In this document: positions 5,981 to 50,498 of the stretch, piece after piece
How positions within the stretch are numbered: the stretch's first letter is position 1
How the letters are laid out: each line of letters opens with the position of its first letter
Assembly (NCBI RefSeq): GCF_002494345.1
Contig: NZ_NXNI01000001.1
Location: forward strand, 682,001-746,000
Direction of reading: 5' to 3'
Length of the DNA stretch: 64,000 nucleotides
DNA from: Natrinema ejinorense
Lineage (GTDB): Archaea > Halobacteriota > Halobacteria > Halobacteriales > Natrialbaceae
Made by a program: the position numbers and the translations under genes
Notes under the pieces: model-generated
Database searches by the model: none
Told to the model about the DNA's origin: nothing
The model's input: only the letters and a program-made list of their open reading frames with translations

Positions 5981-6241
5981 ATGTCCGACACCACTGACGA
6001 ACACGAGACCACCGACAAGGACGAACACGGCCGCGACGTTCAACTCGAGAAGGAGCAAACCGATCCGGAGGAAACGCGAGACGAGGAGGGGCTCACCGAG
6101 GAAGAGAAGGAAGCCCGAGAGCGACGGGACGACGCGCAACGCCGTCAGGACATCGAACAGCAATCCGACGACCGGGAGGACGACGCCCTCGAGAATGCGA
6201 ATCCGGACCACCACCGGGACGAGGAGCCGTACAACAGCTGA
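5981..6241 (+). CDS. Small highly charged hypothetical protein
   Basis: This 86-residue protein is built almost entirely of Asp, Glu, Arg, Lys, Gln and Thr. It has no hydrophobic core, so it is likely disordered or a single long charged helix (about residues 38-70). I do not recognise a family. Codon usage matches the surroundings. Its stop codon TGA (6239-6241) is the first triplet of an intergenic palindromic repeat (6239-6330), an arrangement seen at three other genes in this window. Confidence 0.6.
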   Translation: MSDTTDEHETTDKDEHGRDVQLEKEQTDPEETRDEEGLTEEEKEARERRDDAQRRQDIEQQSDDREDDALENANPDHHRDEEPYNS

Positions 6242-6330
6242 GACGGTTTGTTGTCCCGATGTCCCGGTGGGACCGGGACCGCCGCGACCCCACCGGGACT
6301 GACGGACAGAAGACCGTATGAGACGGTCTG
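6239..6330 (+). repeat. Palindromic intergenic repeat, copy A
   Basis: This 92-base element starts at the stop codon of the gene ending at 6241 (TGAGACGGTTTG, then TTGTCCCGATGTCCCGG). It has a central GC-rich stem (GGTGGG...CCCACC) and ends with a perfect 7-bp inverted repeat AGACCGT-ATGAG-ACGGTCT at 6311-6329. TGAGACGGT occurs at both ends (6239 and 6319). It is homologous to copies at 7329, 16517 and 38877. Orientation is given as that of the adjacent gene. Confidence 0.8.
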
Positions 6331-7328: not shown

Positions 7329-7419
7329 GACGGTCTCATACGGACTCCTCAGTCAGCGCCGGCGCAACCACACGGCGGTTCGCGGTTGCGCCGGGAGATC
7401 GGGACAGGGGACCGTATCA
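7329..7419 (-). repeat. Palindromic intergenic repeat, copy B
   Basis: This 91-base element is read on the minus strand from the stop codon of the peptidase gene (TGATACGGTCCCCTGTCCCG). A central stem of GGCGCAACC and GGTTGCGCC arms follows, and it ends GTCCGTATGAGACCGTC. It has the same plan and the same orientation relative to the adjoining gene as copies A, C and D. Confidence 0.82.
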
Positions 7420-16516: not shown

Positions 16517-16606
16517 GACGTTTCAGACGGACCGCTGTCAGTCAGTGCCGGCGACCCCGCGACCCGTCCGTGGGGTCGCGGTCGCTCGAGACAGGGGACC
16601 GTCTTA
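16517..16606 (-). repeat. Palindromic intergenic repeat, copy C
   Basis: This element of about 90 bases is read on the minus strand from the TAA stop of the monooxygenase gene (TAAGACGGTCCCCTGTCTCG). A stem with arms GACCGCGACCCC and GGGTCGCGGGGTC follows, then CTGACTGACAGCGGTCCGTC. The plan matches copies A, B and D. The stem sequence differs from copy B, but pairing is kept on both arms. Confidence 0.8.
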
Positions 16607-24068: not shown

Positions 24069-24475
24069 ACCGCTACCGGCTGCCGCCTGGGTCTTCGATG
24101 TTCCGGTCCCGGTCGGCCGTCGACGGGCGAGCAGTCGCCGAGTAGGCGGTGACACCATAGTAGCTACTGAAAATCACTGTACACCCGATCGTACGAGGGC
24201 TACGCGAGTAGCGCGTACATCGTTTCAGTGGCGACGGTCAATCATGGACAACGTCTCAAACGAGATGGTATGGAAAGCGTGTTCTATAAGAGTGTAGCAA
24301 GCAGTTTCTGCTTTCTCATCTACGAGTTAGTGCTTCTGGACACAGTTTCCAAACTCCGTCGCCTTCCGCGGGAAGCTTTCTATGACACGCTCGGAGCGAC
24401 TCTATTCACACACTGTGAAACCCTGCGGCCGGCGCAGGGTCGCTGGCCGCGTCGCGAGCGGGCGTTCAGTGACTG
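24069..24475. other. 407-base intergenic stretch with an AT-richer core
   Basis: From about 24230 to 24420 the sequence is clearly less GC-rich than its surroundings and holds no convincing gene. A plus-strand frame from 24228 reads through it (VFYKSVASSFCFLIYELVLLD within it) but continues antisense into tgtA. It could be a remnant of transferred DNA. The right end carries the hairpin listed at 24421-24439. Confidence 0.4.
24421..24439. terminator. GC hairpin downstream of tgtA
   Basis: CCCTGCG-GCCGG-CGCAGGG is a perfect 7-bp stem with a 5-base loop, 37 bases beyond the tgtA stop codon. It could mark the mRNA 3' end or protect it. No T-tract follows directly on the minus strand. Confidence 0.35.
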
Positions 24476-38876: not shown

Positions 38877-38967
38877 GACGCGTCGTACGGGCTGGTGTCC
38901 GTCGTTGACGGCGCAACCGCGACCCGTCTTGGGGTTGGACCGGGGCATCGGGCAGGAGACCGTCTCA
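38877..38967 (-). repeat. Palindromic intergenic repeat, copy D
   Basis: This 91-base element is read on the minus strand from the TGA stop of the F420-type monooxygenase gene (TGAGACGGTCTCCTGCCCGAT). A stem built from CCAACCCC / GGCGCAACCGCG-type arms follows, then CAACGACGGACACCAGCCCGTACG. It is the most diverged copy, but the plan, length and position at a stop codon match copies A to C. Confidence 0.72.
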
Positions 38968-49676: not shown

Positions 49677-50498
49677 ATGAAAGCCCTCCCGAAGTCGCGG
49701 TTACTCCGGTTCGTTGAGCAAGCGATGCACTTGGCTCGGCGAGCTGTCACTCGTTACTCTTCTAAGTTCTCGAAACAGCGGTACACACTTCACCAGCACA
49801 TCGTCCTGCTTTGTCTCAAGGTTCGGAAGAATACGACGTATCGGACGATTCTTGACGAACTTATCGAGATGCCTCGGATTCGGAGCGCCCTCGATCTTGA
49901 AGAAATTCCGGCCCCTTCGACGTTGTGTAAGGCGTTCAGCTGCCTTGACATGGCTGTTTGGCGGGTTCTTCTCAATCTCTCAGTCACGCTTCTCCCAACC
50001 AACGGTGTCGTCGGAATCGACGCCTCCGGCTTTGATCGCAGTCACGCTTCGAAACACTACACCAAACGAACTGAACTTACGATTCAGCAGCTCAAAGTGA
50101 CGCTGTTGGTTGATGCGAAGGTAAACGTAATTCTCGATTTACACGTGACGACGATACGAAAACACGATAGCCAGATCGCTCCATCGTTGATCAAGCGCAA
50201 TCCCGAGAGTATCGATATTCTGCTCGGTGACAAGGGGTACGACGACCAGAAGATCAGACGACTTGCCCGTCAATATGAGGTTCGTCCACTGATCAAGCAT
50301 CGTGAGTTCACATCGCTCCATAAGGCATGGAACGCGCGCTTAGACGCTGATCTCTACGGCCAGCGGAGTCAATCCGAGACTGTCAACTCAACGCTCAAGC
50401 GGAAGTACGGTGCGTTCGTCCGGTCACGACGCTGGTGGAAACAGTTCCGTGAACTCACCATCGCCTGTCTCATTCATAATGTAGACCGATCACTCTGA
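49677..50498 (+). CDS. IS5-family transposase
   Basis: This 273-residue DDE transposase has the first Asp in GVVGIDASGFDRSHASKHY (about 120), the second in DILLGDKGYDDQKIRRL (about 188) and the Glu in RSQSETVNSTLKRKYGAFVR (about 238), which matches IS5 signatures (Y-(2)-R-(3)-E-(6)-K-like). The basic N-terminus (MKALPKSRLLRFVEQ) probably binds the terminal repeats. The reading frame is intact, so it could be active. It ends 2 bases before the IS6-like element. Confidence 0.92.
   Translation: MKALPKSRLLRFVEQAMHLARRAVTRYSSKFSKQRYTLHQHIVLLCLKVRKNTTYRTILDELIEMPRIRSALDLEEIPAPSTLCKAFSCLDMAVWRVLLNLSVTLLPTNGVVGIDASGFDRSHASKHYTKRTELTIQQLKVTLLVDAKVNVILDLHVTTIRKHDSQIAPSLIKRNPESIDILLGDKGYDDQKIRRLARQYEVRPLIKHREFTSLHKAWNARLDADLYGQRSQSETVNSTLKRKYGAFVRSRRWWKQFRELTIACLIHNVDRSL

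Follow-up and report, generated by a model that had tools for sequence, protein, structure and literature searches.

Why do four palindromic repeats in one stretch of haloarchaeal DNA each begin exactly where a neighboring gene ends? The window that we analyzed (64,000 nucleotides of the Natrinema ejinorense genome, G000:C1:682001-746000) contains copies that a sequence-only reading had placed at 6239 (copy A, + strand) and at 7329, 16517 and 38877 (copies B, C and D, - strand), and we confirmed that all four begin with the stop codon of a neighboring gene: TGA for A, B and D, and TAA for C. That reading had proposed either a mobile palindromic element that targets the ends of genes or a terminator or 3'-end stabilizer. 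The best explanation, to which we give a probability of about 0.85, is that these repeats are MITE-like non-autonomous palindromes that duplicate a TGA when they insert, that are concentrated at stop codons by a target motif together with selection, and that decay once they are resident.

The four copies belong to a large family. A covariance model (R1) built from 21 copies gave at least 150 scored matches, with rough E-values, and these correspond to at least ~130 distinct places in the 4.48-Mb genome once palindromes read on both strands were removed. The repeat is a near-perfect palindrome of 57-83 bp, typically 79-80 bp, and a pattern for its left end (GACGGTYNNNTGYCCCGA, with up to 2 mismatches) had 200 matches in the genome versus 24 for the reversed control, which is far beyond chance. 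Flanks were compared for 114 copies of this genome (110 sampled as fetched loci and the 4 copies of the window) and for 60 copies from five other Natrinema genomes. The 114 own-genome copies share the plan K-ACGGT...ACCGT-M, with KACGGTYTSCTGTCC as ends, and measure 57-81 bp, mostly 77-81 bp; one seed copy has 83 bp by its outer bounds. The element is thus short, lacks coding capacity and is palindromic over most of its length. Three 57-bp copies (L099, L119 and L129) are internal-deletion variants that retain both ends. The outermost base of the element is a T or a G (A or C at the opposite end, as at window positions 6242 and 6318), G being commoner on the gene side (38/66) and T on the far side (46/66).

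These boundaries are not those of the 92-base unit described earlier, which contains both copies of the target and 9 further bases, whereas copy A itself has 77 bp (Table 1). Similarly, the terminal hairpin AGACCGT-ATGAG-ACGGTCT had been taken as part of a general plan but is particular to copy A, where it exists because what follows the second TGA (GACGGTCTG) looks like an end of the element. That flank, which restarts with the end-like TGAGACGGTCTG and lies outside the general unit, is possibly the remnant of a second copy; an end-like right flank was found in 6/174 copies, and in at least one of these six (L033) it is followed by another copy. At four loci (L033, L039, L300 and L303), copies directly abut, with one T-S-A triplet in common. 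Such tandem insertion may be favored by the likeness between the target consensus (TGA-GACG) and the end of the element.

Table 1. Positions of the stop-codon element copies, their flanks and other features in the 64-kb window.
Feature	Position	Strand	Length	Description
Copy A	6242-6318	+	77 bp	mobile palindrome, GACGGT...ACCGTA
Copy A, gene-side TGA	6239-6241	+		target duplication; stop of the small charged-protein gene (5981-6241)
Copy A, distal TGA	6319-6321	+		target duplication
Copy A, right flank	6322-6330	+		end-like, GACGGTCTG
Copy B	7339-7416	-	78 bp	
Copy B, gene-side TGA	7417-7419	-		target duplication; stop of the peptidase-like gene
Copy B, distal TGA	7336-7338	-		target duplication
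Copy C	16526-16603	-	78 bp	
Copy C, gene-side TAA	16604-16606	-		stop; duplication no longer perfect
Copy C, distal TGA	16523-16525	-		duplication no longer perfect
Copy D	38886-38964	-	79 bp	decayed, without stable fold
Copy D, gene-side TGA	38965-38967	-		stop
Copy D, distal CGA	38883-38885	-		
Second repeat family	24163-24235			one 75% copy, family with centre CTGATCGCACGACAGCGTTGCGATCAG
PF01609 transposase domain	50013-50480	+		in a 276-aa open frame; G000:C1:732013-732480

Perfect 3-bp direct duplications flank 66 of the 114 own-genome copies, and the triplet is TGA in 34 of them and TCA in the other 32, to the exclusion of any other triplet; most of the copies without a perfect duplication are one or two changes away from it. 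In the five other Natrinema genomes, identical duplications were found for 51/60 copies, 50 of these being TGA or TCA. Since the triplet is repeated directly (TGA..TGA or TCA..TCA) rather than inverted, it reads as a 3-bp target duplication, of which the "stop codon" where gene and element join is the gene-side copy. A duplication of more than 3 bp was not supported, as no correlation was seen between the outermost element base and the flanking bases of own-genome copies.

Empty sites were found as well. At one locus (L041), the own genome reads GACTCA-[79 bp]-TCAGTCC, while another genome of this species is uninterrupted there (GACTCAGTCC), and several further sites are empty in other species. 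Sites A and B lack the element in seven other Natrinema; coding sequences can be aligned up to the stop codon at both sites, showing that insertion left the C-termini unchanged. Altered C-termini at A and B are ruled out by orthologs that end at the same place. The gene between these two copies has close orthologs (65-71% identity) that all come from Natrinema. The number of copies is patchy within this genus, from 0 in four genomes to at least 77. With one insertion that differs between two genomes of the same species and many near-identical copies in one relative, the family is recently active. Altogether, target duplications, the empty site within a species and the patchy copy number bear out the suggestion of a mobile palindromic element at gene ends. 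The sequences show that the element inserts with a 3-bp stagger at the TGA of a preferred target, CGAC-TGA-RnCG, and thereby duplicates this triplet; a transposase would presumably act in trans. Whenever the TGA is a stop codon, the duplication keeps one full stop ahead of the element and the protein does not change, as is shown for A and B. A mobile element can in this way gain a safe harbor without reading genes, since an insertion that doubles a stop codon is harmless to the protein.

Searches with end patterns in the own genome, the genus and the family detected no autonomous element with these ends and yielded just decayed, nested or internally different copies; these searches, like those among sampled transposases, would miss a partner that shares few terminal bases. 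PF13340 and PF13586 were absent from the genomes searched, and the sampled PF01609 insertion sequence copies had other ends, with neither a TGA duplication nor an ACGG end seen. A PF01609 domain is also encoded in the window (Table 1), with no end of the stop-codon element nearby. The hairpin shape of the element, the strand-specific TGA and the fact that the search turned up no DDE partner would all suit mobilization of a single strand by an HUH/Y1 enzyme (IS200/IS605- or REP-like), in which case the hairpin would be joined 3' of a TGA and the second TGA would be the element's own 3' end instead of a duplication. Such a reaction would likewise yield TGA-element-TGA and leave empty sites no different from those seen, but we consider it unlikely: the element is asymmetric inside and yet found in both orientations relative to the TGA (34:32 among own-genome copies with a perfect duplication), and the target consensus extends roughly symmetrically on both sides of the TGA, as in a two-ended reaction. 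Since an asymmetric element is found equally often both ways, we favor a mobilizing enzyme that would choose its target symmetrically and act on two ends.

That insertion duplicates a TGA does not by itself say why this TGA should so often be a stop codon. The window served to train the codon-usage predictor with which genes near the copies were called, so that some "intergenic" copies may adjoin the stops of missed genes. With these calls, 85/114 own-genome copies exactly abut a predicted stop (81 TGA, 4 TAA and no TAG), as do 37/60 copies from the other Natrinema genomes, which amounts to 122/174 copies (70%) and agrees with the earlier idea of gene-end targeting; a single copy of the 174, in the own genome, lies within a predicted gene. 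As a background from the same DNA, 185/1952 non-coding TGAs (9.5%) are stops, while 6585/8537 of all TGAs (77%) are intragenic. The fraction at stops reaches 88/116 (76%) for copies with a perfect duplication. In other genera, 21/35 TGA-type ends with the same end motif are at stops versus 77/866 non-coding TGAs, and two copies on annotated plasmids, one of Natrinema thermotolerans and one of Natronorubrum bangense, begin precisely where a deposited CDS ends.

Pre-insertion sites of copies away from stops have the consensus C-G-A-C-TGA-R-n-C-G, with a rough two-fold symmetry around the triplet, and the same consensus is found for copies at stop codons. CGACTGA is present at 24-25% of target sites; in the background, it is present at 7.6% of stops, at 1.2% of TGAs between genes and at 0.4% of those within genes. 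Since haloarchaeal genes often end in ...GAC TGA, the motif by itself directs many insertions to stop codons. An additive matrix of 8 positions, built from 28 non-stop sites, predicts that 40% of non-coding insertions should be at stops (bootstrap 28-52%), or 45% with another pseudocount. The 76% observed for perfect copies exceeds this prediction (p about 1e-14 under that model), indicating that the motif accounts for much, but not all, of the stop enrichment. We also found that none of the 67 tandem stop-side copies lies less than 35 bp from the next gene, versus 24 of 105 TGA stops in the background. Most of the remaining enrichment is thus likely to come from purging: insertions within genes or tight operons would be lost by selection, and motif and selective loss together would leave 70-76% of the surviving copies at stops.

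The excess over the motif prediction could instead mean that gene ends are actively recognized beyond the DNA motif, through the transcript 3' end or translation termination. We find this highly improbable, as copies away from stops are found in all intergenic classes and have the same duplication and motif there, as the predominance of TGA and the lack of TAG among occupied stops suggest that the DNA triplet counts and not termination, and as purging near promoters and in operons, combined with the limits of an additive 8-position matrix, can cover the excess. A version in which the integration system senses gene ends in addition to the motif, as a built-in safe harbor at stops, is very unlikely too. 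Active recognition of gene ends is not needed to account for the data.

In the MITE-like reading, the palindromes are passengers that decay once resident. Young copies fold strongly (copy A at -47.4 kcal/mol, z -5.0), but the fold of copy D is no more stable than that of shuffled sequence (z = +1.0). The sequence-only reading had noted that stem arms differ between copies while pairing is kept, and had seen in this a sign of selection on structure. Covariation in the inner stem is real across the family, even if its counts in the alignment used (A4) are inflated by some copies present as both strand readings; not every copy keeps its pairing, as copy D shows. Between nearest copies, changes on one side that disrupt or restore a pair were counted 139 and 151 times in two length classes, versus 12 and 16 paired double changes in the same classes. 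Structure therefore appears to be maintained in the transposing lineage and not at resident sites, which agrees with constraint on that lineage rather than with selection on each resident copy. In that lineage, structure may be kept through recognition of the ends or through hairpin-templated homogenization. Likewise, the orientation that the four copies of the window share is not general: copies at stops are weakly biased (79:43 among 122), and own-genome copies with a perfect duplication are almost evenly split. The refutation named in the sequence-only reading, copies mostly away from stops or oriented at random, therefore applies by half: the copies do lie at stops, with a weak bias in orientation. 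A T-tract (T4) lies within 30 nt of 8/122 stop copies, no terminator-like site was found at copy A or B, and a search of the 64-kb window against Rfam matched no family. A functional 3'-end RNA element (a terminator or an mRNA 3' stabilizer) under selection behind stops would agree with the 70% of copies placed there, with the strong folds of young copies and with the inner-stem covariation, but it is not supported and very improbable, since pairing is lost in resident copies (D does not fold), T-tracts are rare and both orientations occur, and since empty alleles are common in relatives and copies in divergent and tandem intergenic DNA carry the same TGA duplication. Stop-adjacent palindromes in haloarchaea should accordingly be checked for TGA duplications before they are called terminators.

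The stop-codon element resembles known repeats in several ways. Like MITEs, it is short and non-coding, has inverted repeats and a 3-bp target duplication, and occurs in many dispersed copies that are polymorphic between genomes. It differs from them in that the searches made found no autonomous element with related ends, in that nearly all of it is one palindrome and in that most of its sites have a stop codon as the triplet that is duplicated. By its anatomy it is a MITE for which these searches found no parent, and we do not file it as a proven one. The MIRUs of Mycobacterium are dispersed repeats of 77-101 bp that have been proposed to spread into DTGA sites at stop codons; they are found at overlapping, translationally coupled stop/start junctions of operons and contain small ORFs. 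Our element is of similar size and also dispersed at TGA stop sites, but it is a palindrome without an ORF and avoids tight operon junctions. Integron attC-like sites were ruled out, as the copies are single and dispersed with TGA duplications. Also close in kind are the SMR-A and SMR-B repeats of Haloquadratum walsbyi, which measure 80-110 bp and number up to 54 copies, with prominent terminal inverted repeats that are not related to any known transposon, a strong target preference and an unknown mode of mobilization (PMC3119063). They share with our element the haloarchaeal host, the size, prominent inverted repeats, for which our searches found no related transposon either, and the strong targeting; however, no target duplication was reported for them and their targets are palindromes of IS605-type elements (PMC3119063), whereas the stop-codon element has a 3-bp TGA duplication and gene-end targets. 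In the scheme of that study, it is between MITEs (target duplication, though no related transposon was found) and SMRs (orphan inverted repeats and strong targeting, with no target duplication reported). GTAG-REPs are palindromic as well, and the ORF next to them often takes its stop codon from their terminus; they are hairpins of 20-40 bp with GTAG at one end and are tied to Y1 (RAYT) enzymes (PMC3733652). The stop codon provided at a palindrome terminus is common to both, but our element has about 79 bp, no GTAG, and its TGA is a direct repeat on both sides. In the literature that we searched, with incomplete coverage, we found no earlier description of this repeat family.

The end motif TSAKACGGWYTNCTGTNNCG, whose reversed pattern had no matches, is nearly confined to the taxonomic family to which the window belongs (f1), where single genomes have up to 161 matches; members of that family named through plasmid records are Natrialbaceae, with plasmid matches in Natrinema, Natronorubrum and Halomontanus. 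Beyond this family, 13 matches were found in one genome and one or two in a few others. The genome with 13 matches (G210, family f14) is an assembly that is 61% complete, and its matches possibly reflect horizontal spread or a mixed assembly. Sinorhizobium plasmids gave partial matches at E 0.01; phages gave no match and one end pattern, searched for in viral contigs, occurred in none of them. A large and recently active repeat family across one haloarchaeal family is a tractable case for studying orphan archaeal small mobile repeats. A second dispersed palindromic family, with CTGATCGCACGACAGCGTTGCGATCAG at its centre, has dozens of copies in several Natrinema genomes besides the one in the window (Table 1). 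One stop-codon element (L040) sits inside such a repeat, with flanks around 1501-1579, and, in other genera, sequences like this second family are found within the stop-codon element itself (L295, L305 and L306).
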